The notes under the pieces are model-generated. The model ran no database searches, was not told where the DNA came from, and worked only from the letters and a program-made list of their open reading frames with translations. DNA of 64,000 nt from Bacteroidota bacterium (GTDB taxonomy: Bacteria; Bacteroidota; Bacteroidia; B-17B0; Aurantibacillaceae). Below are positions 28,583-63,405 of this stretch, one piece after another. Location of the stretch: assembly GCA_020403265.1 (NCBI GenBank), contig JADBXZ010000001.1, forward strand, positions 1-64,000. Reading direction: 5' to 3'. Made by a program: the position numbers and the translations under genes. Each line of letters begins with the position of its first letter. Position 1 is the stretch's first letter.

Positions 28583-29329
28583 ATGAAACTATCTATTGTA
28601 AATTATACCAACACACTACCTTTTCGATGGGCCATACATTCATCTGAACTGATAAAAAAAATAGATTTAGAGGAGGATATTCCAAGTATCTGTGCTCAAA
28701 AATTAAAGCATCATCAGGTGGATGTCGCGCTTGTGCCCGTTGCTTTACTATGTGAATTAAGTTCATATCACATCATAACGGATTTTTGCATTGGTGCACT
28801 TGAGAAGGTTGATAGCGTTAAGTTATATGCTCAAAAGCCAATTAACGAATTATCAAATATACTCTTGGATTACCAATCCAAATCATCGGTTACCTTAATT
28901 AAAATATTGTGTAAAGAATTTTGGAAAATCAACCCTAATTTTATTCCAGCGAGTGTTGGTTTTGAAGAGCAAATAAGTTATTCAACCGGCGCTGTAATTA
29001 TTGGCGACAGAACTTTTGGTTTGAGCAACAAATACAAGTTTGAATATGATTTAGCAACAGCGTGGTTTGAATTAACGCAGCTACCATTTGTGTTTGCTGT
29101 TTGGGTAGCTAATGTAAAACCCTCTGATGCGTTTATAGATGAATTTAATTCTGTTTTGAAATATGGTATTTCAAATATTGAATTAGCTGTTGATAATAGC
29201 AAGGTTAATTATGACACAGCATTTGTAAAGGATTACTTAACTAAAAGTATCAGTTACAATCTAGATGCTGAGAAAAAAAAGGGCCTAAATTTATTCCTAA
29301 ATAAAATCAAGGAATTAAACTTGGCTTAA
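28583..29329 (+). CDS. mqnA: Chorismate dehydratase of the futalosine menaquinone pathway
   Basis: 248 residues of the MqnA/MqnD fold (periplasmic-binding-protein-like). The N-terminal KLSIVNYTNTLPFRWAIH and VDVALVPVALLCEL, and the central FEEQISYSTGAVIIGDRTF, are those of MqnA, which converts chorismate to 3-enolpyruvylbenzoate. This indicates menaquinone synthesis by the futalosine route. MqnD, the closest alternative, has a different N-terminus. Other pathway genes are not in the window. It starts 6 bases after marC, and its last 23 bases overlap the convergent lipid kinase gene. Confidence 0.85.
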   Translation: MKLSIVNYTNTLPFRWAIHSSELIKKIDLEEDIPSICAQKLKHHQVDVALVPVALLCELSSYHIITDFCIGALEKVDSVKLYAQKPINELSNILLDYQSKSSVTLIKILCKEFWKINPNFIPASVGFEEQISYSTGAVIIGDRTFGLSNKYKFEYDLATAWFELTQLPFVFAVWVANVKPSDAFIDEFNSVLKYGISNIELAVDNSKVNYDTAFVKDYLTKSISYNLDAEKKKGLNLFLNKIKELNLA

Positions 29330-30206
29330 ACCCTTCCCCAACAATCACTTTTAATTGATGATGCTGGCATTTGTAAGTTAAGTTGCCGCTGAATTGAGCC
29401 GGCTCGCCATCATAATGAATAGTGGTATTGCCATTTTCAATAATTGATAAATCATTAGTTACAAATGTTTCAATGTACTTACTTTGATGTGCTTTCTTAC
29501 TAAGAATTTTAACGAATAAAGAAATTGCTCCGAAAACACCTGTAGGTCTTAGTATTACAACATGAAACTGACCATCCTGTAAATTTGCTTGCGGGGCGAT
29601 GTAAAATTCATTTCCGTATTGACCGGCGTTAGCAACAGTAATTAAAAAAGCTTTACGCTTTATTGTGTCTCCATTTATACTGAGCGTATAGTTTTTCCCT
29701 TTATACTTTACTAATTCCCTAATGGTAATTTTCACATAACTCTGCAAGCCTCTTTTAACAGAGGTTGCAAATAGATTTCCAATATGAGCATCAAACCCTA
29801 TTCCACTGGTACAGAAAAATGGGCGCTCATTAACTACACCATAATCTATGACTTCGGTTTTACCCGCAGCAATTTGTTTGATCACTTCACTTACATTCAT
29901 AGAAAGTTTTAAACTTCTGGCTAAACCATTTCCACTGCCCGCAGGAACAATTCCAAAAGTAATGGATGTATTAATCAAACTGCTTGCAACTTGATTTACT
30001 GTCCCATCACCACCAACAGCAATTACATCCGTGTAATTCTGTGAGTGCAAAATATCTAACACTTCCTTGAAATGATTTTTATCCTTCCAAATTACAATCT
30101 GGTAATACACATCTTTTGGAAACTCGTTGTTAATAGTTTCAATTAATTTATCTGAAATTTTTTTACCTGCGTTAGGATTAACAATGAATAATAGTTTTCT
30201 AGCCAT
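29307..30206 (-). CDS. Diacylglycerol/sphingoid-base kinase family protein (YegS/DgkB-like)
   Basis: 299 residues of the DAGK catalytic family. The nucleotide motif is VGGDGTVNQVASSL (G65-T69), preceded by FIVNPNAGKK and followed by GIVPAGSGNGLARSL. The C-terminal beta domain contains PQANLQDGQFHVVILRP and IHYDGEPAQFSG. Substrates of the family are diacylglycerol, ceramide, sphingoid bases or related lipids. Given the probable SPT elsewhere in the window a sphingoid-type substrate is possible but unproven. Its stop lies inside mqnA (23-base convergent overlap). Confidence 0.85.
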   Translation of the reverse strand: MARKLLFIVNPNAGKKISDKLIETINNEFPKDVYYQIVIWKDKNHFKEVLDILHSQNYTDVIAVGGDGTVNQVASSLINTSITFGIVPAGSGNGLARSLKLSMNVSEVIKQIAAGKTEVIDYGVVNERPFFCTSGIGFDAHIGNLFATSVKRGLQSYVKITIRELVKYKGKNYTLSINGDTIKRKAFLITVANAGQYGNEFYIAPQANLQDGQFHVVILRPTGVFGAISLFVKILSKKAHQSKYIETFVTNDLSIIENGNTTIHYDGEPAQFSGNLTYKCQHHQLKVIVGEGFKPSLIP

Positions 30207-30308
30207 ATATTTTATGGAACAAATAAAAGAATAAATAATTATACTATTTACTCAATAAATTTAAAATTACAACTAAAACTTTTAATAGGGATATTTTGTA
30301 TGTCATAT

Positions 30309-31394
30309 TTAGATATTTGTTATTTCAGAATATATTTTCTCCTTTGCTGTTCCAACCCAATTTCTAAAGTGGGAATTATCATAAACCTTGTCTTTAGTAT
30401 AATTTATCAAATTAGATAAGTTAAATGAATTATCGTAAATACCAGCACCGGCTTTGGCAGCATCACGTGAGTTACAAAATTGCTCGAAATGGCCTTCGAT
30501 AGGAACAAGCAGCACAGGTTTGCCAAGATACATTGCCTCGCAAACACTTTCAAAACCAGCTGTACTTGCCAGTCCTATTGAAGCACTCATTTTCTCTAAA
30601 AACAATTTATCGTTGATGGCATGCAACATTAAATTGGAATTACTGTATGGAAATAGCTCCATTAATTTTTCTGGAGAATCAGTAAAGCAGTGAATCTTCA
30701 CATCTGAATTCTCTTTATGCCATTGAATCAAATCCTCGTAATAGCCATTGTTAACCAAATAAACTAAAAAGTAATCTTGTGGATTTGTAGGTAATTCAAA
30801 TATTTCCTTCCTCAATAATGGTGGCACTACCACTACCTCATCATGATGGGTATAAACCTTATAAAAAGATAGTGCCAAGTTTTTGCTTGAACCCTTTGAT
30901 GTCAATTTTGTATAAAACTTTATAGCCAATTTATCGAAAAAATATCCTTTTGGAAATTCGAAATCAGGATGATAATAAATATATTGATGCGCAATACATA
31001 CCATTTTAGTGGTTGGCTTGTAAAATCGATAATATAAGCCCATTAGCAAATCAAAAAAGTTAATGATTACATCAGGTTGATGTTCCTTAACGATAGTATC
31101 AATTTTATCAAGCGATGATTTAAAAGTTTTAAGTTTTAATAAATTATGTATAACCGATTTACCAATATTGATGGATTTATTTTTTTTATCTGAAACAAAA
31201 TTTGGACTAACCAAATTAAAAATTGGGGCTTTAATTTTTTTATGAAAAAATTCAGGAGTATCTCTTTTTCCGCTTGAGCCAAGTATAACAGCACAAACGG
31301 TATTTCCCTGCTCAATCAATAAATCGTACAAAGTCATAGCTTGTGTCATATGCCCTCTACCCTCTCCTTGTACTACTAAGAGATACTTTTTCAT
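30309..31394 (-). CDS. Glycosyltransferase family 28-like protein
   Basis: 361 residues. The N-terminus (YLLVVQGEGRGHMTQAMTLYDLL) is the GT-B glycine loop of the MGT/GT28-related glycosyltransferases. The C-terminal half has the donor-site pattern ASTAGFESVCEAMYLGKPVLLVPIEGHFEQFCN, very close to the MurG/UDP-sugar transferase signature. There is no signal peptide or membrane helix. It starts 2 bases after the LpxH-like gene stop, so the two are translated together and may act on the same glycolipid, perhaps in envelope assembly. Donor and acceptor are unknown. Confidence 0.8.
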   Translation of the reverse strand: MKKYLLVVQGEGRGHMTQAMTLYDLLIEQGNTVCAVILGSSGKRDTPEFFHKKIKAPIFNLVSPNFVSDKKNKSINIGKSVIHNLLKLKTFKSSLDKIDTIVKEHQPDVIINFFDLLMGLYYRFYKPTTKMVCIAHQYIYYHPDFEFPKGYFFDKLAIKFYTKLTSKGSSKNLALSFYKVYTHHDEVVVVPPLLRKEIFELPTNPQDYFLVYLVNNGYYEDLIQWHKENSDVKIHCFTDSPEKLMELFPYSNSNLMLHAINDKLFLEKMSASIGLASTAGFESVCEAMYLGKPVLLVPIEGHFEQFCNSRDAAKAGAGIYDNSFNLSNLINYTKDKVYDNSHFRNWVGTAKEKIYSEITNI

Positions 31395-31396
31395 TT

Positions 31397-32185
31397 CTAT
31401 GCTGATTTTGATAATTGATTAATTTTTTGTTGCTCATGCTTCTCTAGCCACTCAGAATAATAAATAATACTCCAAACACCCTCCTTGTCCTCAACTAAGG
31501 CAGTTAAACTTTCAACCCAGTCTCCACTATTAAGATATTCAATGCCATCAATGTTTTTGATAGCCGGTTGGTGAATATGCCCACAAATAATACCTCCGCA
31601 ACGACGAGCCTGTGCTACTTTCACTAACTCTTGTTCGTAATCTGATATAAAAGAAACAGCTGACTTTACCTTAGCTTTTACAACTTGAGAAAGCGAATAA
31701 TATGGTAATCCTTTCCGTTCTCGATAATTATTGTAGTGACGATTTAACCATAACAAAAAGGTATAACCTACATCTCCGAGCTTGGCTATCCATTTTAATT
31801 TTGTAGTTACATTATCAAAAATATCACCATGTGTAACGAAATACTTTTTATTTACACCGTAGTGAACATGATGGCGTTTAATTTTAAAATTAGCTAATGA
31901 GAATGGTAAAATTTCATCTAGAAAATCATCGTGATTTCCTCTTAAATAAATAATCTCGTCGCATTTGGCTTTTGCAATAAGATTTATAACGTATTTAAAA
32001 AAATTGCTGTGTTGTTTTTTCCACTTACCACTTTTTCTGAGCTGCCACCCATCAATAATATCACCATTTAATATTAGTGTTTCACATTTGTGATGTTTTA
32101 AAAAGTGTACTACTTCCTTTGCCTTACTGGCTTTGATTCCAAGATGAATGTCAGATAATACGATGGTTTTGTAAAAGGCTTTCAT
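31397..32185 (-). CDS. UDP-2,3-diacylglucosamine diphosphatase-like metallophosphoesterase (LpxH type)
   Basis: 262 residues of the calcineurin-like phosphoesterase fold. Metal-binding blocks appear in order: SDIHLG (residues 12-17), NGDIIDGW, RGNHDDF, THGDIFD and CGHIHQPA. The insert RHYNNYRERKG and overall layout match the Bacteroidota LpxH-type enzymes that hydrolyse UDP-2,3-diacylglucosamine to lipid X in lipid A synthesis. A more general phosphoesterase role cannot be excluded. It is paired with a glycosyltransferase gene 2 bases downstream. The 150 bases upstream are AT-rich with no clear promoter box. Confidence 0.8.
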   Translation of the reverse strand: MKAFYKTIVLSDIHLGIKASKAKEVVHFLKHHKCETLILNGDIIDGWQLRKSGKWKKQHSNFFKYVINLIAKAKCDEIIYLRGNHDDFLDEILPFSLANFKIKRHHVHYGVNKKYFVTHGDIFDNVTTKLKWIAKLGDVGYTFLLWLNRHYNNYRERKGLPYYSLSQVVKAKVKSAVSFISDYEQELVKVAQARRCGGIICGHIHQPAIKNIDGIEYLNSGDWVESLTALVEDKEGVWSIIYYSEWLEKHEQQKINQLSKSA

Positions 32186-32335: not shown

Positions 32336-34216
32336 TTAATATTCTCCGCCAATTTTTCTTTTTTCGTAACCTTCAATTAATGGTAATTTCTTAGGTGGTT
32401 CTATGGAGGTCAATGGTCTATTTAATGTTTTCAAAAATGAAATTAAAGCTTTAATCTCCATTTTAGTTAGCTTGAGTGAATCAAACGGTAAAGTTTGATT
32501 TGTTAAAACTATACCTTGACCCTTGCCACCACCATGATTGTAAAAATCGACAACCTCGTTGATGGTTTTCAAACTACCGTTATGCATGTATGGTCCGGTA
32601 TATTCAAAGTTCCTTATCCCGGGAGTTTTAATTGCATGTAAATGAATTGGATTCTTCGAAACCAAAAATCTTCCAGAATCAGCGGCAATTATACTAGAGT
32701 TTTTATGCTCACCAACTCCAATCACTTCAAACTCATTATCACTATAAAAAGGCGGTGGCGATCCATTAAAAAGAGGGAAAAAATGACAAGATCCGCATAA
32801 AGCTTTACCTGCAAAAACAGCATAACCCCTTATTTCTTCCTTTTTTAAGGCGTTTAAATTTCCTTGCAAATATGAATCAATAGGGAGATTCAAGTCTACC
32901 AGCGTTCTTTCAAATTCCGCAATAGATTTTAAAACTGAATAATAGGTAATTAACGTATCTTCTGAGCCTTGAAAGGCGTTTGCAAACAATTTACGATACT
33001 CGTAGCTTTTTCTTAATTTGGCAATTACAGCCTCTGGCGTTGAATTCATTTCCCTTTCATTTATAAGTACGGCATGTAATTGATCTTCCAGTTGCATGCT
33101 TCGACCATCATGAAAAAATGATTTCTGAAGAGACACGTTTAATAAACTTGGTGTATTAATTTTCAACTCTCCTTTAAAATTAAATTCCTTGTTAGATTTT
33201 ACATTAGAAGCTAAACTTTTGTTAATCTGATGACAAGAAGCACAAGCTCTTTTTTCATTTCCAGATAAAATTGGGTCGAAAAAAAGAATTTTTCCTAACT
33301 CTACTTGTTGGCGAATCTTTGCTGTATCAACACTATAATTTCTAAAGAAATTTAAATTCAACCATGAGCTTGAATACATTTGTTGTTCCCGGATATTAAT
33401 GGCGTATGATGTGGATTCCAATCTCGATTCTATAGAATAATAACTGTAGAGATTTTTATATAATGGCTTAATTTGATTTGATATAAAAAACAATCTATCA
33501 AACTGCTCGTAATTATTATTCTGATTTATATACTCCAAAATTGAATTAATAATATGCCTTGTTTGTTGTGCAAGTAAAGGATCTAATATCTGACAAACCT
33601 CTTCCAAACCTTCCATAGAACTTCTTACTTCATTCAATGCATTTTTATCAATGGTTGAATCATATCCATTTAAGTGCATTGAAACTATCCTGTATAAATT
33701 CAAACGTAACATATCAACAATTGTAGACTGTTGATTCGAAATGGATTTATTTCTTTTTATAACTGATTTTAAGGTTTCGATTAATAGATCGATTTCGAAA
33801 TTGATTTCCTTTACCCTTTCAGCATCATAATTATATACGAACTCTTCAATAACCTGATAGCCATGAGGCGAAATGGTTTTAAAATTATATTCCGCCTCGG
33901 CCTTCGGCACTAATGGCCCATTAATGAAGTATTTACTATAAAACGGAAAATGATATTCAAGGTAAAACTCTATTTTCTTATAATTAATTCTTGCCTTTCT
34001 GTAAATATCAATTAAGTGGTTGGTAGCTTTATTCTGTTTTATGACCTCTTTTAAATCGCTTAATTGTTGAATTTGATTTATAAGATTTTTTTCAATAAAG
34101 CTATTAATTTTAGCTTCCTCCGATAATTCTATATGCTTAAAAGAGTTAAAACAGAAAAATAAAATCGTTAGCAGTAAAAGTTCCAAAAGTGGAAAATAAA
34201 ATCGATTCAAATTCAC
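32336..34216 (-). CDS. Diheme cytochrome-c peroxidase (MauG/CcpA family) with a helical N-terminal domain
   Basis: 626 residues. Two heme c motifs are seen: CASCH at C325-H329 and CGSCH at C474-H478, with the family context GKILFFDPILSGNEKRACASCH and LYGSCH-type second site, and HDGRSMQLEDQ. This is the periplasmic diheme peroxidase fold. Residues ~25-290 are an all-helical extension not found in standard CcpA (~320 residues); the stretch ISPHGYQVIEEFVYN recalls imelysin-like domains, but weakly. The N-terminus is a membrane anchor or signal (LLELLLLTILFFCF). The start is GTG 34216; no ATG precedes the anchor. It follows the phosphatase operon by 76 bases. Confidence 0.85.
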   Translation of the reverse strand: MNLNRFYFPLLELLLLTILFFCFNSFKHIELSEEAKINSFIEKNLINQIQQLSDLKEVIKQNKATNHLIDIYRKARINYKKIEFYLEYHFPFYSKYFINGPLVPKAEAEYNFKTISPHGYQVIEEFVYNYDAERVKEINFEIDLLIETLKSVIKRNKSISNQQSTIVDMLRLNLYRIVSMHLNGYDSTIDKNALNEVRSSMEGLEEVCQILDPLLAQQTRHIINSILEYINQNNNYEQFDRLFFISNQIKPLYKNLYSYYSIESRLESTSYAINIREQQMYSSSWLNLNFFRNYSVDTAKIRQQVELGKILFFDPILSGNEKRACASCHQINKSLASNVKSNKEFNFKGELKINTPSLLNVSLQKSFFHDGRSMQLEDQLHAVLINEREMNSTPEAVIAKLRKSYEYRKLFANAFQGSEDTLITYYSVLKSIAEFERTLVDLNLPIDSYLQGNLNALKKEEIRGYAVFAGKALCGSCHFFPLFNGSPPPFYSDNEFEVIGVGEHKNSSIIAADSGRFLVSKNPIHLHAIKTPGIRNFEYTGPYMHNGSLKTINEVVDFYNHGGGKGQGIVLTNQTLPFDSLKLTKMEIKALISFLKTLNRPLTSIEPPKKLPLIEGYEKRKIGGEY

Positions 34217-34292: not shown

Positions 34293-36164
34293 TCAATGTT
34301 TAACAAATTTGAAATTCTTCGAGTATTTACCATCAGAAACTTTTAAAAGGTATGGACCATTTGCCAACTGTGTGATATCTAAATGGTATTTCTCCAAATT
34401 ACCTTCATCTACTTTATATGACTTACTTATCAACATTTTACCTTCAATAGAAAAAACAGAAATCGTAACCACTCCGGCAATTTGATTTTGCATCTGAACT
34501 GATAAATACTCTTCACTAGGATTTGGATATACAGACAATACAATTGGAGAAGAATCTATTCCTTGCAAAGATGTAGAGGTATTGGTGATTAGGGCACGAG
34601 GACACTGTGGCGCATATATGTATTGAATATTTGATCTTGGAATAGCCGCAGAATTATTAGAAATTAAAAAACGCTGAAGATTATTAACGTAAAATGATTT
34701 GGCGTGATTAAAAGAAGTTGACTTAGTATCTAAGGTATTCACATTAAACCAATCTGCTTGAGTTCTGTTTTGATTCACATCCATAATAATATAACCGTGT
34801 TCCGTTAAATCAACATACTTTATATGACTATTAGCAGCTTGAATAGCAGATGCTCCAATCGGTAATGAGCTTCCTGGAGAAGTAACACTCGAACACACAA
34901 ATTCAACGCCTGCACTTCCTGCACCTGTGCTCGAATTATATGTTGGCAGGGGCAAATCATTTGCCCAGGCTGTGTGTATGTCACCTGTTATCACAACAAA
35001 ATTACTTATATTGTTGGTGATTACATGGTTTAAAACTCTGTCTCTCTCAGCAGGATAACCATCCCATTGATCTCCATTAACCGCAACCCCAAATACTTTT
35101 AAAGGTGCCATCATCACTTGTTGACCTAATACTTTCCATTTAGAAGTGCTATTGCTCAATTTTGAAGAAAGCCAATTAAATTGTGTTGTACCTAATAATT
35201 GTCTGCTCATACTATTAACGGTTGCTCCGGTAGTACCGGCCTGTAAATCTCTTCCTTCAACCCTTGTGTCAAGCATCATTAATTCAATCAAATTACCGTA
35301 TTTCATCGATCTATAAATCTGATAAGGATTGGTAGTCCCTGTTACTCTGATTGGCAACCATTCAAAATAAGCTTTTTGTGCTACCATCTTTCTTGCACTC
35401 CATAAGCCTTCACTAGGTTGATGATTCTGTGCACCATTCATCCATGCATCATTGGTAAATTCATGATCATCGTAAACACAAATAAATGGAAATTGTTGAT
35501 GCAGCTTTTGTAAATCATCATCTAGTCTGTAGCTTGAATAACGCATTCTGTAATCAGCTAGTGAAACAATTTCATTGGCAGGAGACCATTGCCTGTTTAC
35601 ATTTGAATTAGGAGAATAACCGCCAGTATTATACTCATAAATATAATCTCCTAAACAAATAACTGCATCAAAATCATTTCTTTGAAACAAACTACCGTAT
35701 ACATTAAACCAACCTGCTTCAAAATTCGCACAAGAGGTGATAGCAAATCTTAAACTATCACAATTTCCAATCGGATTAGTTTTTGTTCGACCCCTTGGGG
35801 ATAATTGATTATCAACCTGAAATTCATAAAAATAAAACGTGTTCGGATTTAAGCCATCTACATCCACCTTAACTGTATAATCAGAACTTGAATCTGTTAG
35901 AAGTGCTCCTGACTTTACAATATTCACCATTCCTGTATCTGTTGCAACACGCCAAGAAACAGCTATTGAATTAAACATTTGACTAGGTTCTGGCGTTACT
36001 CTTGTCCAAATAATAACTTTGTCATGTAGTGGATCACCAGAAGCTACGCCGTGATAAAATGGTTTTAAGCAACTTTGAACACTCACAGAATGTTTAAATT
36101 GAGCGATTAAATTACTACGTGTAAGTGTTAGTAGAAATAATATCGAAAATAATTTTAGTTTCAT
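34293..36164 (-). CDS. Alkaline phosphatase D (PhoD)-family protein with T9SS sorting domain
   Basis: 623 residues. Signal peptide LKLFSILFLLTLTRSNLIAQ. A PhoD N-terminal domain (HGVASGDPLHDKVIIWTRVTP) is followed by the metallophosphatase domain with CLGDYIYEY, VYDDHEFTNDAW, MMLDTRVEGRDL and VVITGDIHTAWAND, the usual metal ligands of PhoD. The C-terminus (LSVYPNPSEEYLSVQMQ ... ANGPYLLKVSDG) is a type A T9SS sorting domain. It should therefore be a secreted or surface phosphatase or phosphodiesterase acting on organic phosphate. It starts 1 base after the glycine-rich gene, as the last member of a three-gene operon. Confidence 0.9.
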   Translation of the reverse strand: MKLKLFSILFLLTLTRSNLIAQFKHSVSVQSCLKPFYHGVASGDPLHDKVIIWTRVTPEPSQMFNSIAVSWRVATDTGMVNIVKSGALLTDSSSDYTVKVDVDGLNPNTFYFYEFQVDNQLSPRGRTKTNPIGNCDSLRFAITSCANFEAGWFNVYGSLFQRNDFDAVICLGDYIYEYNTGGYSPNSNVNRQWSPANEIVSLADYRMRYSSYRLDDDLQKLHQQFPFICVYDDHEFTNDAWMNGAQNHQPSEGLWSARKMVAQKAYFEWLPIRVTGTTNPYQIYRSMKYGNLIELMMLDTRVEGRDLQAGTTGATVNSMSRQLLGTTQFNWLSSKLSNSTSKWKVLGQQVMMAPLKVFGVAVNGDQWDGYPAERDRVLNHVITNNISNFVVITGDIHTAWANDLPLPTYNSSTGAGSAGVEFVCSSVTSPGSSLPIGASAIQAANSHIKYVDLTEHGYIIMDVNQNRTQADWFNVNTLDTKSTSFNHAKSFYVNNLQRFLISNNSAAIPRSNIQYIYAPQCPRALITNTSTSLQGIDSSPIVLSVYPNPSEEYLSVQMQNQIAGVVTISVFSIEGKMLISKSYKVDEGNLEKYHLDITQLANGPYLLKVSDGKYSKNFKFVKH

Positions 36165-36165
36165 T

Positions 36166-37752
36166 TTACTTTTTAATTAATTTTTGCATGACGGTTACAT
36201 CAGAAGATATTAACTTGAGAAAATAAACACCATTATTTAAATGACTTAAGTTAATAACTTGAAAATCATCTTTACTTAGCAAACAATCTGTAACAAAAAC
36301 TTCTTTACCGTTGATATCTAATACGATTATTTTTCCAGAATGGTCATTTAAATACTGAGGGTACTTAAATTGAATGTTCAAAAAATCATTCGTCGGATTA
36401 GGAAAAATAGATAACTCATGGTATTTAGTATACTCAGAAAGTGATGTGTTGAAATTACAAATCAAACTGTATGTGCCTGGTAATCCATTTGCAAAACCTG
36501 TACCGCCAGTAACGTTTGTAACCGGACTAATGGTATTTCCTTGACAACTTGCTGCGAAAATTTTAATTCGCCCACCGCCGCCTGCTCCGCCTGAATTTCC
36601 TGCAGCTCCATCTCCACTCTTGAGTGTTTGAGTACCGCATAATAAGGCACTATAATTGCAAGTTATACCGGTACCGGCTTGTCCACCTAAACCACCATTT
36701 CCACCTTTGGCATTTAGTGAGCCATTTATATTTATAAAATTATAACATTCTAAAAGAATTCCCCCACCGCTGCCTCCGCCACTTCCTGCACCTGATCCAG
36801 CGCCGCAAGATAATGTTGCTTCACCACAATCATCACATCCGTCAGAACAACATTTAGCTGTTACGTTCCCATTTCCGCCACTTCCACCATTACCGCCATT
36901 TGAACCGTTCACAAGTATCGAACCGCTTATTATCAAAGTATCCTGAGCACTTATCTTAATCAAGCCACCGCCATTTCCTCCTTTAGCACCATTACTTCCC
37001 GTGTTAAATGAACGAGCGCCTCCTCCAGCACCTCCTCCTCCACTACCTAAATCAATGTCATTTGAACCTGCTGTGCCATAAGTGTTACCTGTAATTGCAC
37101 CAGCACCTCCACTTCCTTGAACAACAGCATACCCTGTTGATACATTTACCCCAGTAGCTGTATATGAGTTAGTTCCATTTCCACCAGCTCCGCCGCTACT
37201 ACCTTTACCGCCATAACTTCCACCTGAACCGCCACCTCCGCCGCCAGCGCTTCCTATCATTCCAGCTTCATCATTATTACTTAAACATTGTTGCTTTGGC
37301 CCTGAACCATTACCACCATTTGCCCCGGAAAGACCTGCTCCAGTACCGAAACCATTCAGCCCAGCTTTACCTCCTTCAAGTGTAATTTGACCCGTATTAT
37401 CTTTATTATTACAAGAAGTTAAAGAAACCTGATCGCCTGTTAAACTTGTTACACTGCTGCCGCCAACACCGCCAATACCACCTAGTTGCCCAGCATCATT
37501 TGCATCAATAGTCCCATTTACAATAACTGTTTTCGCATTAATTTCTAATTTGCCACAAGTGTTATTGGCGTACTTATTTACAAAAACCGTTACACCGGAA
37601 GGAATAATAAATCGGCCTGAAACACTATATGTCCCTGATAAAATTATGCTACTTGACACAACGTAATCGCCATTAATGGCAGTGAGCGTGCATTGTGCCC
37701 AACAGAATTTAGCAGATAACAATATGCAAAGGATAAAAGTCTTTATTTTCAT
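36166..37752 (-). CDS. Glycine-rich extracellular protein with T9SS sorting domain
   Basis: 528 residues. Signal peptide MKIKTFILCILLSAKFCWAQ. Residues ~60-420 are extremely glycine-rich, with GG-x-G repeats (GGIGGVGG, SAGGGGGGSGGSYGG, GSGGGGAGGGARSF, SGAGSGGGSGGGILLE) separated by beta-like stretches such as LIKISAQDTLIISGSILVNGS and NININGSLNAKGG. A cysteine cluster lies at CCSDGCDDCGEATLSCG. The C-terminus (LSIFPNPTNDFLNIQF ... NLSHLNNGVYFLKLI) is a T9SS type A sorting signal. The layout suggests a polyglycine or beta-helical scaffold outside the cell. It sits between two phosphatase genes with gaps of 1 and 3 bases. Confidence 0.82.
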   Translation of the reverse strand: MKIKTFILCILLSAKFCWAQCTLTAINGDYVVSSSIILSGTYSVSGRFIIPSGVTVFVNKYANNTCGKLEINAKTVIVNGTIDANDAGQLGGIGGVGGSSVTSLTGDQVSLTSCNNKDNTGQITLEGGKAGLNGFGTGAGLSGANGGNGSGPKQQCLSNNDEAGMIGSAGGGGGGSGGSYGGKGSSGGAGGNGTNSYTATGVNVSTGYAVVQGSGGAGAITGNTYGTAGSNDIDLGSGGGGAGGGARSFNTGSNGAKGGNGGGLIKISAQDTLIISGSILVNGSNGGNGGSGGNGNVTAKCCSDGCDDCGEATLSCGAGSGAGSGGGSGGGILLECYNFININGSLNAKGGNGGLGGQAGTGITCNYSALLCGTQTLKSGDGAAGNSGGAGGGGRIKIFAASCQGNTISPVTNVTGGTGFANGLPGTYSLICNFNTSLSEYTKYHELSIFPNPTNDFLNIQFKYPQYLNDHSGKIIVLDINGKEVFVTDCLLSKDDFQVINLSHLNNGVYFLKLISSDVTVMQKLIKK

Positions 37753-37755
37753 AGA

Positions 37756-40089
37756 TTAGTTATTAATTATTATTTTTTTTACGATTACTTGGTTACTAGC
37801 TAACAAAAATCTTAACGCAAACGCACCTCCGCTTAAGCCGGATGGAATCAGGACTTCTTTTTTATCAAAACCTTTATCTAATAATTTGCATTCGTAGACG
37901 CTGCCATTACTTGCAACAAGATCCACATGATTAATTTGAACATCCGGCAAATGTGAACAAGAAATAGTTTGTAATTCTGATGAAACTACTACCGGGTAAA
38001 TAAAAATTTTAGCATTCTCATAAGATGACGTTGAATTAAAACCTGTAGAGCCACAATTAGCAGGCGGGAGAATATTTATCTCAAAGGTATCTTTAATACA
38101 ACTTAATGCATCATATGCATAGTAAATTGTAGAAACAGCAGGATTAACGATAATTGAATTTTGATTAACACCTAGTGGGAACCATTGCACATTCTCAGGC
38201 CATGAAGCTGTTAATGTTGTTGATTGATTTGGGCAAATAGAAAAAGTTGTTTTCTTTCCAGCGTTTTTAACAATAGTAAACTTATCTAATACGTTCCCTG
38301 TTGTTCCAATAAATTTAGCGTCCAAACGGTTATTGTTAAATTCCAACAACATGCTTCCAAGGTTAGTATTGGTAGAATAATACATGGCCGGGTGCGGCCA
38401 ACCACTTGATGTTCCGCTTAATTTACCAGAACACCCGCAAACAGTATATACTGCGCCTTTATTTGCTTTTGATGCGTTCGTAATTTTTTGATATGGACAA
38501 TTTGTTGGATAACTTCCGCTACCCGCATCCAACTTCATGTTTGCTTGCAATGAACCCGAGTTTCCATAATGACCATTTAACAAATAAGATCGTTCATAAC
38601 AATGACTATGGCCGTTCAAAACCAAATCAACTCCACCAGTTTCTAAAATAGGCACTATGTTTTGTCTCATATCCACTAATTCCCCGTCTAGAAAATTGGA
38701 GTTATCTGAATTATGACTTCCTTTAGTATATGGTGGATGATGCCAATAGGCTACAACCCAAGGCAAGGTATTTGCCGCCAAATCAGCCGTTAACCATGTT
38801 GCCATTGGTCCTCCTGCGCTTCTGCTTTGATCGTATGAATCCAATGAAATAAAATGGACGTTCCCGTAATTATATGAATAATAAGCTTCAGTACCTGAGG
38901 GTACTCCACCAGCTTCTCCAGATTTGGGTAATGAAAAAATATCAAAGTAGGCTGGTGCCGGAGAAAATGGAATATTATGATTGTAATCGTGATTACCGGG
39001 AGCGGGCCATGTTACAACACGTTTCATTTCATTCATATATCCATTTGGTGAAAAAACATTCGTTTGATACTCGCTATCAAATCCGCCTTCATAGGCATTA
39101 TCTCCTAACCAAATCCAACCATCAATATGACTAGATCCTATATAACTTAAAAAGCCGTCGCGTGCATTAGCCTGATTAGAATTGCCTGTACCTGCATCCC
39201 CAACCACCCAAAAATTAACTTTATTGGTAGACCCTGTTAATGGGCTAGTTTTGAAATAAATTGATGGACTAGCTGCTGAAAGCGTAGAGCCAGAGGCACC
39301 AATTGTATAGTAGTAAATTGTTGAAGGAGTTAAACCAGTAATTTTCACTTCATGATTCGTTGTAATTGAAGGGTCTGAGGTTACGTTAGTTAAAGAGGAA
39401 ACACTAGAACCATAAAAAACTTTTGAATCACATGGTGTCGTTGTCCTCCATTTTACAATCATGGAAGAAGGCGTTCCAAGATTTAAATATGGCCCCCTGT
39501 CAACACTGTATGATGGAACAGTTGTTATCCCGTCCAATTTTAAATTAAAACTAATGTCAGAACTGCTTCCGCTTTCTTGATGAATTTCAACGCAAATAAT
39601 ATTTGTACCAGTGCTTAATACTAGAGGACTAATTACCGATGAATTCCATGCACTTTCCGCACCAAATGCAATAGCAGAATTTGCCAAAGTATTGAATAAA
39701 ACAGGACCCGATGGTAAATTATCTCTCCAAACTTCAACTCCATTAATATAAACAACTGCTCCATCATCCCTCACTACCTGTAAACTTAAACTAGTTAAAG
39801 CGGCAGGATTGGCTACTGTAAAAGTTTTACGAAAATACGTGGTAATGTTTTTATTAGAAGAATTACTACCAAAACTAACCACCGTTGCCTCATCTCCATC
39901 ACCATAACCCAATTCAGCGTTACCCGAAGACCAAAAAGAATCATTGTAACTTAAAGTTAACCAGTTCGTTGCTTGATTTGAACCATTATCCAAATACCTC
40001 CAACTACTACCAGCGGAAATAAGTGATACCTGTGATAAAACACTATTTAATGATATAAATGTGAAAAGTAAAAAACTACATAACCTCAT
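37756..40089 (-). CDS. Purple acid phosphatase-like metallophosphoesterase with T9SS sorting domain
   Basis: 777 residues. Signal peptide (LCSFLLFTFISLNSVLSQ). An N-terminal lectin-like domain of ~170 residues (GSSWRYLDNGSN, TTYFRKTFTVANP) is followed by a fibronectin-III-like purple acid phosphatase N-domain (RGPYLNLGTPSSMIVKWRT). The catalytic domain has GDAGTGN, WLGDNAYEGG, GNHDYNHN, YWHHPPYTKG and NGHSHCYERSY, the full set of metal-ligand blocks. The C-terminal ~90 residues look like a divergent T9SS type A domain. It is the first gene of an operon with the glycine-rich and PhoD genes. The -7 box TATCTTTG lies 4 bases before the ATG. Confidence 0.87.
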   Translation of the reverse strand: MRLCSFLLFTFISLNSVLSQVSLISAGSSWRYLDNGSNQATNWLTLSYNDSFWSSGNAELGYGDGDEATVVSFGSNSSNKNITTYFRKTFTVANPAALTSLSLQVVRDDGAVVYINGVEVWRDNLPSGPVLFNTLANSAIAFGAESAWNSSVISPLVLSTGTNIICVEIHQESGSSSDISFNLKLDGITTVPSYSVDRGPYLNLGTPSSMIVKWRTTTPCDSKVFYGSSVSSLTNVTSDPSITTNHEVKITGLTPSTIYYYTIGASGSTLSAASPSIYFKTSPLTGSTNKVNFWVVGDAGTGNSNQANARDGFLSYIGSSHIDGWIWLGDNAYEGGFDSEYQTNVFSPNGYMNEMKRVVTWPAPGNHDYNHNIPFSPAPAYFDIFSLPKSGEAGGVPSGTEAYYSYNYGNVHFISLDSYDQSRSAGGPMATWLTADLAANTLPWVVAYWHHPPYTKGSHNSDNSNFLDGELVDMRQNIVPILETGGVDLVLNGHSHCYERSYLLNGHYGNSGSLQANMKLDAGSGSYPTNCPYQKITNASKANKGAVYTVCGCSGKLSGTSSGWPHPAMYYSTNTNLGSMLLEFNNNRLDAKFIGTTGNVLDKFTIVKNAGKKTTFSICPNQSTTLTASWPENVQWFPLGVNQNSIIVNPAVSTIYYAYDALSCIKDTFEINILPPANCGSTGFNSTSSYENAKIFIYPVVVSSELQTISCSHLPDVQINHVDLVASNGSVYECKLLDKGFDKKEVLIPSGLSGGAFALRFLLASNQVIVKKIIINN

Positions 40090-40093
40090 TCAA

Positions 40094-40101
40094 CAAAGAT
40101 A
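40094..40101 (-). promoter_or_regulatory. -7 box TATCTTTG, leaderless-type, for the phosphatase operon
   Basis: Perfect TAnnTTTG on the minus strand ending 4 bases before the ATG at 40089. Confidence 0.6.
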
Positions 40102-40184
40102 TTGACGAGCTTAAAGCGAATAGTTAACTATTTATTACGAATTAGTTAGGAATATGTGATACTAAAATTAAATTAATGTAATAA

Positions 40185-41426
40185 TTACTCCTCCTTAAAA
40201 GGGTTCCTAGGAATCCATTCTTCCGGTTGTAAAAATCTGATAAAGGATTTTTGAATGAGCTTTGAAAGTGTATTTTGTGCTTTAATATAGCACAAAAGAT
40301 CTCTGGGTTTGGCACCAATCGTTGTTTTTATTTCTGCTGCCGTGCGGCCAAGATTAACATGATGTTTTTCTTTACTTAATGCAGATGATATCAAATTACA
40401 AAGTGTGTTCTGATATAATTCATATTCTCTGTTTAAAGAATAATCAATACCAATGTAATGTGCTTCAAATTTATTTTCGCTCAAATTAAAAGAACTATTG
40501 AACCCAATCAATTTCTGATTCAAAAAAAATCCGGTAAGTGTAAACTTATCATCAAATATGGCTTTGCACCTACTAAAGTAATTTTTAGGTAATTGTAATA
40601 ATTTAAATTTGGCACGTTCAAATACTTGAAGGTATAATGTATTAATTGAATCTTCTCGTTCAACTATTTCATCATATTGTAGCTCTCTTACCTCTACTGA
40701 TGAAAATTTCTTTTGAATAGTTTTTGACCGATTTCGGTACTTTTTTGAAAATAATTGCACATAGTCTTCTATGCTTTCTACTTGTGATGGGATTTCAACA
40801 ATTAAATTCGGCTCAACTGAAAACATTTCATAACCAGATGATTTAAAGAGTTGTTTTGGTCTTAGTGGTTCTTCAAAATCTTTAATCAGAATTGCAGATA
40901 GCATACCTGTCTTTTTTTCTTCACCGCTAATAATATCCAATACCTTAATAACCAAGTCATGTTTCTCCTTTTCACCAACTTCCTCCCGAAATATAAAGCC
41001 ATACTCTCCTGAAATAATACTATTTCCGCATGTAAACAGGCGAAGTAAATTTTCGTCTTTATTCTTATAAAGATACTTCTCTAATAATTTTAAAGTTCCT
41101 GATTCATTTTCTTCCCGCTCACTTTTAATTAAATCACCAAAAATACCGGCGTTAAAATCAGTAATCTGGCAATTAACAAAGCCAATAGGCTTCAAATTGC
41201 TAAATATAATGCAATATCTTGTTTGCAACTTAGCATTAGTACAAGCCTCAATTAAACTAAGATACTCCTTATTAAAAAAAATATCTTCAGGTTGAATGAT
41301 TTGAGTCAACTGATTTTCAGGAATTGAGCTAGCGCAATCAAAAAGTGTGAACGAATAGTTGTTATCTAACTTCCGATGGGGAGCAAATCGTTTTTTAGAA
41401 TTAACAGGTTTACAAAAAAGAGTCAT
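40185..41426 (-). CDS. GNAT-fold acetyltransferase-like protein of unknown substrate
   Basis: 413 residues without signal peptide or membrane helix. The C-terminal half contains a GNAT/FemAB-like pattern: YRNRSKTIQKKFSSVEVREL, then LTGFFLNQKLIGFNSSFNL, HYIGIDYSLNREYELYQNTLCNLI and a terminal VNLGRTAAEIKTTIGA, the order found in Acetyltransf_6/peptidoglycan-bridge-type proteins. The N-terminal half (DIFFNKEYLSLIEACTNAKLQTRYCII) looks like the partner domain of the same fold. The substrate is unknown. The gene has a weak -7 box (TACCTTTA) close to its ATG and is divergent from deoC. Confidence 0.65.
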   Translation of the reverse strand: MTLFCKPVNSKKRFAPHRKLDNNYSFTLFDCASSIPENQLTQIIQPEDIFFNKEYLSLIEACTNAKLQTRYCIIFSNLKPIGFVNCQITDFNAGIFGDLIKSEREENESGTLKLLEKYLYKNKDENLLRLFTCGNSIISGEYGFIFREEVGEKEKHDLVIKVLDIISGEEKKTGMLSAILIKDFEEPLRPKQLFKSSGYEMFSVEPNLIVEIPSQVESIEDYVQLFSKKYRNRSKTIQKKFSSVEVRELQYDEIVEREDSINTLYLQVFERAKFKLLQLPKNYFSRCKAIFDDKFTLTGFFLNQKLIGFNSSFNLSENKFEAHYIGIDYSLNREYELYQNTLCNLISSALSKEKHHVNLGRTAAEIKTTIGAKPRDLLCYIKAQNTLSKLIQKSFIRFLQPEEWIPRNPFKEE

Positions 41427-59613: not shown

Positions 59614-60411
59614 TTATTCAACCGAAGTTATATTCTTTTCCAATAAGTACCTCAATTTTTCAGGGCTCAATTCGGCGTTAATCTCTCCAGCCATTGTAAG
59701 AGATACATTTCCTGTTTGTTCACTAACGCTGATGGCCAAAGCATCAGTTGTTTCGGTAATACCAACTGCGGCGCGGTGTCGCATTCCATAATGTGCAGGA
59801 AAATTTTCTTTCTCAGTTACAGGAAGAACGCAACGAGTAGCAACTATTCTATTATCAGCAATTATCATAGCCCCATCATGCATTGGTGAGTTTTTAAAGA
59901 AAATATTTTCAATCATTCTACTTGAAATACTCGAATCGAGCTGATCACCTGTATTTATGTACAGTTTTAAATCTGTCTTTCTGGCAATGACTATTAATGC
60001 TCCTGTTTTTGTTTTGCTCATTTTAAAACATGCATCAACAATTGCTTCAATATCCAGTTGATTCCCTTGATTGCTTGATGATTTAAATCCAAACTTAATT
60101 AAGTTACGCCATCCATTATTTTTTAAAAATTCATTGGATCCAATGTATAGTAAAAATTTCCTAATCTCTTGCTGAAACACTATCATGATAGCAATAACAC
60201 CAACGTTAATGAACTTACTTAAGATAGAACTTAGTAACTTCAATTCAATGGCGTTTATAACGATATAAAATACATAAATAATTCCAAATCCGAAAAATAT
60301 TTTAACTGCATTTGTTCCTCTAGCAAGCGTATATGCAGCATACAGCAATAGTGCTACCAAAAAAATATCTATGGCATCAAATAAACTAAACTGTATGAAA
60401 CCGTAATCCAC
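59614..60411 (-). CDS. cdaA: Diadenylate cyclase
   Basis: 265 residues. Three N-terminal membrane helices (about residues 8-85) precede the DisA_N (DAC) catalytic domain. The two catalytic motifs are intact: D179-G180-A181 in SPMHDGAMII and R211-H212-R213 in GMRHRAAVG. It makes cyclic di-AMP from two ATP. The start is a GTG at 60411 that overlaps the ppx/gppA stop by one base (TAGTG), so translation is coupled. In many Bacteroidota cdaA follows folP; here it ends a polyphosphate operon instead. Confidence 0.93.
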   Translation of the reverse strand: MDYGFIQFSLFDAIDIFLVALLLYAAYTLARGTNAVKIFFGFGIIYVFYIVINAIELKLLSSILSKFINVGVIAIMIVFQQEIRKFLLYIGSNEFLKNNGWRNLIKFGFKSSSNQGNQLDIEAIVDACFKMSKTKTGALIVIARKTDLKLYINTGDQLDSSISSRMIENIFFKNSPMHDGAMIIADNRIVATRCVLPVTEKENFPAHYGMRHRAAVGITETTDALAISVSEQTGNVSLTMAGEINAELSPEKLRYLLEKNITSVE

Positions 60412-61295
60412 TATTGCTTCTTAATATGATTTTCATACAAATCATGTATAAGGCCATCAGATAAACCAACCTGAGGCACATACACTTTTTCAATATCACC
60501 ATGTTTCATTACGCTCAAGAAAATTTTAGCAGCATGAACAATAACATCAGCCCGATCTGGTTTTAAGTCTAAACGTTCTATCCGTTCTTGAACTGTGTAT
60601 GAGCTGAGCATTTCGTAAATTCCTTTTAATCTATCAAAGCTTAAATGCTTGGTTTCTTTTTTGCCACTCATTTTAAAAATTTTATTGATGTTGCCACCTG
60701 AACCAATCGCACTTAGCGGATGAATTCCTACAGTGTTTCTTTTAACCCATGCTTTCATTTCATCCCATTCTGCTTTATCTACTTTATCCAAAACCATCCT
60801 AACTGTTCCAATGTTAAAGGATCTTGAAGTAATAACTTTATTATCATAGTATAGGGTTAATTCTGTGCTACCTCCACCTACATCGATATACATGTAAGCA
60901 TAATTCGGGTTCAATAATTCTTCGATGTGATTACTAAAAACTAAAGCAGCTTCGAGTTTTCCATCTATAATTTCAAGATTAATTTTAGATTCCTCTTTTA
61001 TTCTTTTAAGCAAATCTTCCCCATTAGTTGCATCGCGCATAGCACTAGTAGCTACAGCACGATAAGAAATAATGCCGTAAGACAATATTAAATAATGAAA
61101 ACCTTTTAATGCATTAATTAATCGATCTGCCTTTTCATCAGAAATTTTTCCGTTTAAAAATACGTCTTCCCCTAAGCGTATTGGCATTCTTATTAATTCC
61201 TCTTTTGTATAATGTGGTTTACCATCAACTACAGTTACCCTACTAAAAAGTAGTCGCATGGCATTACTTCCTATGTCAATTGCTGCAAAAACCAT
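60411..61295 (-). CDS. Ppx/GppA-type exopolyphosphatase
   Basis: 294 residues of the ASKHA-fold Ppx/GppA family. N-terminal phosphate loop AAIDIGSNAMRLLFSRV, then TSAMRDATNGEDLL, YIDVGGGSTELTLYY and GSGGNINKIFKM. It lacks the C-terminal HD-like extension of E. coli Ppx (513 residues), as do many Bacteroidota homologues. Exopolyphosphatase or pppGpp phosphatase activity is expected. It starts 1 base after ppk1 and ends overlapping cdaA. Co-occurrence with ppk1 supports a polyphosphate role. Confidence 0.88.
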   Translation of the reverse strand: MVFAAIDIGSNAMRLLFSRVTVVDGKPHYTKEELIRMPIRLGEDVFLNGKISDEKADRLINALKGFHYLILSYGIISYRAVATSAMRDATNGEDLLKRIKEESKINLEIIDGKLEAALVFSNHIEELLNPNYAYMYIDVGGGSTELTLYYDNKVITSRSFNIGTVRMVLDKVDKAEWDEMKAWVKRNTVGIHPLSAIGSGGNINKIFKMSGKKETKHLSFDRLKGIYEMLSSYTVQERIERLDLKPDRADVIVHAAKIFLSVMKHGDIEKVYVPQVGLSDGLIHDLYENHIKKQ

Positions 61296-61296
61296 A

Positions 61297-63402
61297 TTAA
61301 TTTAATATTAATGCCTTAGATTTTGTATTTAATTTTCCTTTAGTTGTAGTTACTGACAAATAATTGTATATCTCATCTTGTACCCTTACTTTCTTTTCAC
61401 CAGGTTGTTGCCTCTTATAAATATTTTCTTGTTTTTTATCTAATATCCTTACTTTCGTATTACCACTTAGTTGAATGTTTAGAATGTCTTTTAATTGTTT
61501 TCGAATTTCTTCATCGTAAATTGGTACCGCTACTTCACTTCTACTATCCAAATTTCGACTCATCCAATCTGCGCTTGAAATGAAAATTTTTTCAGCGCCG
61601 TCGTTAGCAAAAACAAATACCCTTGCATGCTCCAAATATTTATCAACGATGCTATATGCTGTAATATTGTCGCTCCAACCTTCAAGACCAGTTACCAGTG
61701 AACAAATTCCTCTTACAATTAAGGTAACTTTTACACCAGCCTTGCTTGCATCATATAACTTCTCGATCATTTCCTTATCAACAAGACTATTCATTTTTAA
61801 GATTATATAAGCAGGCTTTTTCTTTTTAGCATTATGAATTTCTTTATCAATTAATTCAATAAATATCTTACGCATGTAAAATGGAGCAACCACTAGATGC
61901 TTAAAATCTGCAACTTTAAAATTATTTTCATAAAAATCGAAAACCTTGTTTAATTCCTCACATATATTTTTATTACAGGTGAGAAGTGTAAAATCAGTAT
62001 AAATTCTAGCTGTTTTTTCATTAAAGTTGCCGGTGCCAATATGTCCACAATAACTTGTTTTACCTTTTTCTCTCGATGTAATCAAACAAAGTTTAGAGTG
62101 TACTTTTAAACCGGGTACCCCATAAATCACCTTTGCCCCTTCTTCCGACAACTTATTTGCCCAATAGATATTATTCTCTTCATCAAAACGAGCTTGTAAC
62201 TCAACCAAAACAATTACTTTTTTACCATTTTTTACAGCATTAACTAATGCATTTGCAATTTTACTAGAATCTGCTACACGGTAAAGCGTAATTTTGATAC
62301 TTTCTACATTAGGATCGATGGAAGCTTCCCTTAAAAGATTAATGATATGATTATACGTATGATATGGATAATGAAGTAACAAGTCTTTAGACTTAACAAC
62401 ACTCATAATAGTGTTGGTATTAGACTCTAGTAGTTTATGTTGAAGTGCCGGAGGATGATTATAAACTAATTTAGAATCTCCAAGATTAGGAAATCCAATA
62501 AAGTCTTTAAAGTTGTGATATCTGCCGCCAGGAATTGCATTATCCTTTTTGTTCATTCCTAATTTACGCATGATATATCTTAACATATCACCTGGCATTG
62601 CTGCGTCGTAAACAAACCTTACCGGTTGACCCTGTTTCCTCGCTTTTACACTACTAGATATTTTTTCAATCATACTTTTGCTCACATCACTGTCAATATC
62701 TAATTCAGCATCTCTGGTAAGTTTAATGTTATATGCTTCAACCGTTTTATATCCAAATACTTTAAATATTAAATCTGTATTATGCCTGATAACATCATCA
62801 ATAAGAACAATATAATGTTTGTTGCCTTGCTTGGGCATTACAACAAAACGACTGGTACGTGAAGGAATTTCAATTAATGCGTATTTAAACTTGGTACTGC
62901 CTACAATAGATTCCAATTTAATATACATATAACTGGCCTTATCCTTCATGTATGGGAAAGGCTTGTTATCATCAATCATGAGAGGATAAAGCAATGATAC
63001 TACCTCGTTGTTAAAATATTCGGTAATGTATTGTTCTTGTTGCGAACTTAACTGCTGTTCATTTAGAATAAAAACATTGCTTTTCTTTAGTTCAATTAAT
63101 AATTCTTGATAAATAGCTTCGAATTTATTTTGCTGTTCAATAACTCGCCTTTGTAGTTTTACCAAAAGATCCTTAGGATCCTCACCATAAATTTCAACTG
63201 CCTTTTTTCCTAACTTCGTAAGGCGTTTAATTGTAGCTACTCGAACTCTATAAAACTCATCTCTATTGTTACTAAAAATTCCCAAAAATTTTAATCTCTC
63301 AATTAAAGGTGTTGTTTGATCGGCTGCCTCCTGCAGAACGCGCTCATTAAAAGATAACCAACTGATTTCTCTGTTAATAAAAGGCAAGGACTTCTTTTTC
63401 AT
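61297..63402 (-). CDS. ppk1: Polyphosphate kinase 1
   Basis: 701 residues, full length for PPK1. The N-terminal block (PFINREISWLSFNERVLQEA) is typical. The autophosphorylated histidine is H435 in LKVHSKLCLI and the second active-site histidine is H592 in LEHARVFVF; both fall at the same numbers as in E. coli PPK1. HIGTGNFNEKTARIYTD and NITLYR-type ATP-binding segments are also present. It makes polyphosphate reversibly from ATP. It lies 3 bases after the sixA-like gene and 1 base before ppx, so all four genes are one transcript. Confidence 0.96.
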   Translation of the reverse strand: MKKKSLPFINREISWLSFNERVLQEAADQTTPLIERLKFLGIFSNNRDEFYRVRVATIKRLTKLGKKAVEIYGEDPKDLLVKLQRRVIEQQNKFEAIYQELLIELKKSNVFILNEQQLSSQQEQYITEYFNNEVVSLLYPLMIDDNKPFPYMKDKASYMYIKLESIVGSTKFKYALIEIPSRTSRFVVMPKQGNKHYIVLIDDVIRHNTDLIFKVFGYKTVEAYNIKLTRDAELDIDSDVSKSMIEKISSSVKARKQGQPVRFVYDAAMPGDMLRYIMRKLGMNKKDNAIPGGRYHNFKDFIGFPNLGDSKLVYNHPPALQHKLLESNTNTIMSVVKSKDLLLHYPYHTYNHIINLLREASIDPNVESIKITLYRVADSSKIANALVNAVKNGKKVIVLVELQARFDEENNIYWANKLSEEGAKVIYGVPGLKVHSKLCLITSREKGKTSYCGHIGTGNFNEKTARIYTDFTLLTCNKNICEELNKVFDFYENNFKVADFKHLVVAPFYMRKIFIELIDKEIHNAKKKKPAYIILKMNSLVDKEMIEKLYDASKAGVKVTLIVRGICSLVTGLEGWSDNITAYSIVDKYLEHARVFVFANDGAEKIFISSADWMSRNLDSRSEVAVPIYDEEIRKQLKDILNIQLSGNTKVRILDKKQENIYKRQQPGEKKVRVQDEIYNYLSVTTTKGKLNTKSKALILN

Positions 63403-63405
63403 GTT

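Follow-up and report, generated by a model that had tools for sequence, protein, structure and literature searches.

What is a glycine-rich protein doing between two secreted phosphatases? The question is raised by a 64,000-nt stretch of a Bacteroidota bacterium of the Aurantibacillaceae (GCA_020403265.1, contig JADBXZ010000001.1, positions 1-64,000; hereafter the window), in which three minus-strand open reading frames (ORFs) encode, in order of transcription, a purple acid phosphatase (PAP), a glycine-rich protein (GRP) and a PhoD-family phosphatase. The intergenic gaps are 3 and 1 bases, confirming the tight arrangement described in a first-pass annotation of the window, and from this spacing a single mRNA would be expected; a consensus scan placed no terminator-like site between the three genes and marked some inside genes. 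On balance, we consider it probable that the locus is an operon for cell-surface phosphatases under phosphate scarcity, with the GRP co-delivered and a neighboring MauG-like protein acting as an accessory.

Two phosphatases and a glycine-rich protein with known or probable secretion tails

The first gene (37756-40089, 777 aa) carries the Pfam domains Pur_ac_phosph_N and Metallophos, and its product matches solved PAPs in the PDB (6gja, 4.8e-16; the Fe-Zn enzyme 8brn, 1.6e-10). The residues of its five metal motifs, GD.G, GDN.Y, GNHD, HH.P and GHSH, are invariant across 21 aligned PAPs (D298; D330/N331/Y333; N366/H367/D368; H450/H451; H494/H496). With N-domain, metallophosphoesterase domain and all five motifs in place, the protein is by its sequence most plausibly a PAP. 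It shares the N-domain and metal motifs with 6gja and 8brn but differs from them in two respects: some members here carry an extra N-terminal region, which in the window spans about 190 aa, matches no Pfam family and is absent from orthologues of 595-623 aa, and 20 of the 21 proteins scanned end in a type IX secretion system (T9SS)-type tail.

The third gene (34293-36164, 623 aa) encodes PhoD_N and PhoD domains (8.9e-107; 357.6 bits against a cut-off of 27) followed by Por_Secre_tail, and matches the solved structures 9uya (8.3e-114) and alkaline phosphatase D 2yeq (1.8e-86). These cut-offs and likenesses place it in the PhoD family; its 345.8 bits against the 1000-bit cut-off of the NCBIfam equivalog AlkPhosPhoDBac indicate a PhoD-like protein and not that equivalog. 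The PhoD_N and PhoD domains are held in common with 2yeq, the alignment covering residues 34-477, whereas the window protein adds a T9SS tail and sits in an operon with PAP and GRP. Between the two enzymes lies the GRP gene (36166-37752, 528 aa), whose product comprises a domain of residues ~20-433 and a T9SS type A tail of residues ~446-528. Its only Pfam match is Por_Secre_tail (1.7e-13), and the tail resembles solved T9SS tails (8qb1, Z 11.4; 8glk, Z 10.8).

T9SS sorting domains had been attributed to all three proteins. This holds for GRP and PhoD, both of which exceed the cut-off for a type A C-terminal sorting domain (PF18962/TIGR04183). The PAP tail of the window has no match in Pfam or NCBIfam; because TIGR04183 is matched at E<=0.05 by every other PAP scanned (20 of 21), it is probably a divergent T9SS tail. 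The genome also encodes the SprA translocon (profile search, 2316.6 bits; cut-off 200).

The gene order is conserved within and beyond the family

Of the 87 genomes covered from the family of the window, 18 encode GRP, and an order-level search added nothing to this. In a class-level draw it was found in 29 of 395 genomes (E<=1e-30), four of them of the window's own genus, and its domain in 14 of 196 genera; a phylum-level draw, which sampled different genomes from the class draw, returned the window alone (1 of 296, E<=1e-20). We inspected the surroundings of GRP in all 18 family genomes (the window, L009, L010 and 15 further stretches) and, outside the genus, in 18 of 25 class genomes (20 stretches), the other seven all having GRP within a long ORF.

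A conserved neighborhood had been set beforehand as the test of the unit, and it was found: the order PAP-GRP-PhoD is present in 17 of the 18 family GRP genomes, window included, with gaps of -32 to +34 bases under our choice of start codons, and the full triplet recurs outside the family in genomes G106, G156, G393 and G155. A fifth outside genome, G466, has it in pieces on two contigs. Within the family, a contig end truncates the PAP of G072, and the contig of the 18th genome, G071, begins inside GRP. No PAP or PhoD match near GRP was obtained by tblastn (1e-8) in G244, G249, G153 and stretches L084-L089, some of these stretches being short; the GRP of G244 (L075:3070-4635) is itself broken by an in-frame TAG.

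PhoD at >=60% identity is present in 19 of the 87 family genomes. With GRP scored at the same threshold, eighteen genomes have both GRP and PhoD, one has PhoD only, none has GRP only and 68 have neither (Fisher 1e-17, a value that ignores the relatedness of the genomes). In the single PhoD-only genome, G058, PhoD lies amid other genes and adjoins no GRP or PAP. Seventeen family genomes encode PAP at >=59% identity (in two pieces in G072), all of them with GRP. The three proteins have correlated pairwise distances (Spearman 0.81-0.90), and in each of their trees L070, which comes from another family, is placed with L028 (support 0.91-0.96); this suggests that the unit was inherited or transferred as a block. 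A chance neighborhood is rejected, the gene order recurring across genomes. In G008, a choice-of-anchor I protein with a T9SS tail is encoded directly upstream of PAP (L009:1732-5499).

A fourth gene suggests a link to phosphate-induced operons

The first-pass annotation had described the phosphatase unit as three genes; PAP, GRP and PhoD stand, and a fourth gene had been missed. It lies on the same strand 76 nt after PhoD (32336-34216), and its product joins a C-terminal half that matches di-haem peroxidases (1iqc, 8.3e-60) to an N-terminal half related to EfeO/imelysin (7wgu, 7.9e-7; 7q1g, 1e-6; 3at7, 6.7e-6), the latter also matching EfeO 7wgu on its own (3.2e-5). Both CXXCH haem sites of the CCP_MauG domain are present, the first as CASCH in 19 of 19 sequences and the second as CG[ST]CHF in 18 of 19; at 171 bits, the protein falls short of the equivalog cut-offs of TTQ_mauG (443.85) and MXAN_0977_Heme2 (362.85). 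The gene directly follows PhoD in 17 of the 18 family genomes, and in G040 it adjoins PhoD on the opposite strand.

Relatives of the MauG-like protein are found in 57 of 295 class-draw genomes (64 matches), three matches belonging to the PAP-GRP-PhoD unit. We examined 40 of the other 61, taking two ORFs (>=150 aa) on each side. In 26 of the 40, the gene directly upstream, on the same strand and 3-109 bases off, belongs to a PhoX family defined by an iterated profile seeded from L160, the locus in which the second MauG relative of the window's own genome follows a PhoX with a T9SS tail. Counting PhoX-profile genes within two genes raises this to 29 (adding L129, L140 and L151), and a PAP-type gene adjoins the MauG relative in five more (L121, L128, L148, L153 and L158, three on the opposite strand), L158 also having a PhoD. 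By raw count, 34 of the 40 thus have a PhoX-, PAP- or PhoD-type gene no more than two genes away; L124, L126, L127, L142, L144 and L155 have no such phosphatase gene within two genes. In L154 (6329-7009) and L159 (6402-7082), a gene that by its look resembles a response regulator adjoins the MauG relative of a PhoX-MauG pair.

A pairing of this kind is already known. According to excerpts of two papers on Flavobacterium, PhoX (Fjoh_2478) and the MauG-like Fjoh_2477 of F. johnsoniae are induced by phosphate depletion, with transcriptome fold changes of 12.50 and 9.58 (PMC8115612), and phoX forms an operon with a MauG-like gene in all Flavobacterium genomes (PMC8812569). In the same excerpts, a Flavobacterium PhoX expressed alone in P. 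putida had no detectable activity, for which the reasons offered were poor expression or localization, or a missing MauG-made cofactor (PMC8812569). In the window, as in this Pho-regulon operon, a MauG-like di-haem gene comes after a gene for a secreted phosphatase; the window differs in having PAP and PhoD as the enzymes, together with a glycine-rich partner and T9SS tails, whereas the excerpts describe PhoX as a lipoprotein (PMC8115612, PMC8812569). The extension of the PhoX-MauG link to PAP, PhoD and an EfeO-like half was not found in the literature searched (titles and abstract openings, with subscription journals mostly outside the search); neither was a proposal connecting EfeO, MauG and phosphatases, nor a phosphatase-glycine-rich T9SS unit.

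Pho-box-like repeats precede the PAP gene

Pho boxes have an 11-bp spacing. Upstream of PAP in the window, 27-59 nt before the start codon on the minus strand, lies a Pho-box-like run of three TAAC/TAAT/TAAC words with an 11-bp period (40116-40148), of which only the second word pair falls within a limit of two mismatches. With two mismatches allowed in total, TTAAC-like pairs at 11-base spacing were found upstream of PAP in 13 of 17 regions and of PhoX in 17 of 25; among 106 other genes from these MauG loci, 31 had such a pair (Fisher 2.9e-4 for PAP and 4.3e-4 for PhoX). The 106 genes form a strict control because they include a few phosphatase genes. The 17 PAP regions are the 22 available minus L039, which has no upstream DNA, and minus the presumed close relatives L031, L033, L036 and L080, three of which also have the pair; the 25 PhoX regions are 26 minus one that was too short. 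Of 21 PAP upstream regions, 13 have a passing pair, at a distance of 49-74 nt from the start. Compared across offsets of 6-17, counts at 11 were 22 against a maximum of 13 elsewhere for PAP, 28 against 16 for PhoX and, less markedly, 42 against 31 for the 106 other genes.

Nearer the gene, 5-12 nt before the PAP ATG, is a candidate -7 promoter element, TATCTTTG (40094-40101, minus strand), which resembles the Bacteroidota consensus TAnnTTTG and is the best motif match at the identical distance from the PAP start in L028, L029 and L070. Its closeness to the ATG would imply either a leaderless mRNA or a later true start of PAP.

The repeats, shared with PhoX operons, and the induction of the MauG-like counterpart in Flavobacterium by phosphate starvation make the anticipated phosphate response of the operon likely, by sequence and by analogy. 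They also speak against phosphatases serving biomineralization or general nucleotide and phospholipid turnover outside phosphate regulation, an account to which the solitary PhoD of G058 lends some weight and which we judge very improbable.

The glycine-rich protein is predicted to be an ordered surface module

Across an alignment of 30 GRP sequences and 574 columns, many glycines are invariant, as are six cysteines (C156, C301, C302, C306, C372 and C403), and the consensus includes the motifs GSGPKQQC, DIDLGSGG, KCCSDGCDDCGEA and GGRIKIF. The conserved domain of ~410 residues matches no Pfam family. AlphaFold2 gave the whole protein a mean predicted local distance difference test (pLDDT) score of 89.5, and residues 20-433 alone a pLDDT of 93.8 with a predicted template-modeling score of 0.88; stretches rich in glycine and free of helix or strand were predicted at a confidence of 97-98. 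The score for the domain alone rules out disordered polyglycine at the level of the model.

Foldseek returned no significant solved match to the domain in the PDB (best E 3.1). When VIA-align was run on its 24 candidates, the domain aligned with the HMW1 secretion domain 2odl (Z 11.1, 2.1 A, 141 residues) and HpmA 4w8t (Z 8.9, 127 residues), so that the predicted fold appears to resemble a right-handed beta-helix. In the BFVD, 10 matches fell below 0.001, two named collagen-like, one a PA14-domain protein and the rest uncharacterized or unnamed, mostly with high root-mean-square deviation. Polyproline II bundles are described for the T-even phage tip, for Obg and for snow flea antifreeze protein in an excerpt of PMC8409303. 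The Foldseek matches listed for GRP include no structure of phage gp38 or Obg, which excludes nothing, and the antifreeze protein 3bog aligned over all 81 residues (2.7 A) at a Z of 4.3, below the tool's meaningful level. Bundles of this class consist of at least six glycine-rich polyproline II helices stacked in layers. Like such bundle proteins, GRP has glycine-rich segments that form neither helix nor strand, here predicted with very high confidence; unlike them, it appears to be built on a beta-helix similar to that of 2odl, and it has conserved cysteines, a CC.DGC motif and no Pfam family. The glycines show a faint periodicity (z about 2 at lags 3, 4 and 6), and the glycine-rich loops might conceivably leave the beta-helix to pack as polyglycine-II helices. 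A relationship to Pfam Gly_rich_2 was rejected (no match; hhalign of the GRP profile against a Gly_rich_2 protein, probability 0.2%). Separately, in L148 (2549-4024; G305), a different glycine-rich T9SS protein with Gly_rich_2 and TIG domains adjoins the MauG relative and PAP.

The same domain forms the N-terminus of longer ORFs in L084-L089 (for example L086:6804-10292), none with a PAP or PhoD match nearby. A Pfam scan covered four longer proteins. Three of them have a CHU_C tail, accompanied by seven SprB repeats each in L084 and L086 and by Ig and PKD domains, with no SprB match, in L088; the fourth, that of L076, has only Por_Secre_tail. L084 and L086 share a homologous N-terminal glycine-rich domain with the unit but differ in their repeats, tail and surroundings. 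Because it also heads longer T9SS proteins, the GRP domain is, judged from these sequences, a surface-protein module and not by nature a phosphatase subunit.

This bears on two alternatives. The first-pass annotation had suggested that GRP holds the enzymes at the surface or in matrix, and in a stricter form GRP would be a physical scaffold binding PAP and PhoD into one surface complex. Its gene does lie between those of the two enzymes and is co-inherited with them; against this, the predicted domain is ordered, it is shared with longer T9SS proteins around which the stretches fetched show no PAP or PhoD match, G058 has PhoD alone, and PhoD and the PAP orthologues, each equipped with its own T9SS tail, need no carrier. 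The holding role is conjectural, and the scaffold is unlikely. Alternatively, GRP could act more generally at the surface or in the matrix, in adhesion, in protection or in binding ice or minerals, its gene being co-regulated under nutrient stress without a role in phosphate use. The occurrence of its domain in SprB-repeat proteins and the partial match to 3bog (81 of 81 residues aligned) fit this possibility, to which the tight linkage to PhoD and PAP across several families and the low score of that match are opposed; we hold it to be a lesser but real possibility.

Neighboring genes

The operon is closely preceded, on its own strand, by a 413-aa ORF with no Pfam family at E<=0.1 (40185-41426). 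Downstream, also on the same strand, 29307-32185 encodes an LpxH/PlcP-like phosphoesterase, a glycosyltransferase (Glyco_trans_1_3) and a diacylglycerol kinase-like gene, in an order identical in G008 (L009); these genes could serve lipid remodeling or lipid A work. A lipid-remodeling PlcP was rejected for 31397-32185 because a search at 1e-5 found no other such gene in the genome, and this one may be LpxH. A row at 59614-63897 contains a histidine phosphatase superfamily gene, ppk1, a Ppx/GppA gene and a cdaA-like diadenylate cyclase. The ppk1 and ppx genes (60411-63402) lie ~20 kb from the PAP-GRP-PhoD operon and are not part of it, and the suggested link of ppk1 to the unit comes down to proximity within 64 kb.

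A model for surface phosphate scavenging

In the model that we favor, low inorganic phosphate would cause a PhoB-type regulator to act at the 11-bp repeats and turn on PAP-GRP-PhoD, the MauG/EfeO-like gene being switched on together with the unit in most family members that have it. PAP, GRP and PhoD would reach the periplasm via signal peptides, fold there and exit through the T9SS to the cell surface, where the two enzymes would free phosphate from organic phosphorus. GRP may be a rigid surface module, a short right-handed beta-helix with a polyglycine-II-like glycine-rich part, co-delivered with the enzymes; most likely it would serve as an anchor or adhesin that settles the cell or the enzymes on material rich in phosphorus. 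The MauG-like protein would stay periplasmic and probably mature the phosphatases before export.

Several observations weigh against this model. G184, with a complete flank, has GRP-PhoD without PAP (as do G279, G305 and G187, with a contig end near in each), and the GRP domain is found without PAP or PhoD nearby in L075, L076, L077 and L084-L089. The word TTAAC was picked after seeing the PAP upstream regions, so that the PhoX set alone is independent; the 106 other genes also exceed shuffles at offset 11 (42 against 18.3); and a de novo motif search of non-redundant PAP upstream regions did not beat shuffles (53.4 against 45.2-58.8; 12 starts each). The fetched stretches of G156, G393, G155 and G184 contain no MauG relative, and the MauG-like gene is therefore not essential. 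By Pfam alone (1e-5), PhoX is seen in 17 of the 40 proteins upstream of MauG relatives and Pur_ac_phosph_N in 4, and those of L122, L125 and L147 give no PhoX match even at E<=1, having been admitted by the iterated profile only. Finally, the EfeO/imelysin metal motif is HxxE, and because its histidine is replaced by glutamine in the EfeO-like half, an iron-binding role for that half is doubtful.

A bolder combination is that one periplasmic EfeO/imelysin-MauG fusion matures unrelated secreted metallophosphatases (PhoX, PAP and PhoD) before their export in folded form and that the PAP-PhoD version adds a surface module of a new kind, a polyglycine-II-like bundle on the GRP beta-helix that ties the enzymes or the cell to matter rich in phosphorus; we put this forward tentatively, as a lesser possibility. 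The scaffold, adhesion and maturation roles are offered as hypotheses.

Phosphate scavenging is an ordinary function, and Bacteroidota are major recyclers of organic phosphorus; it is the gene arrangement that is conserved and that we did not find described. Two features give it interest: GRP, which by its predicted structure would represent an ordered glycine-rich domain of T9SS surface proteins absent from Pfam, and the MauG/EfeO-like neighbor common to unrelated secreted phosphatases. Relatives of this MauG-type accessory beside PAP, PhoD and PhoX pose a general, testable question on how such enzymes may be matured.

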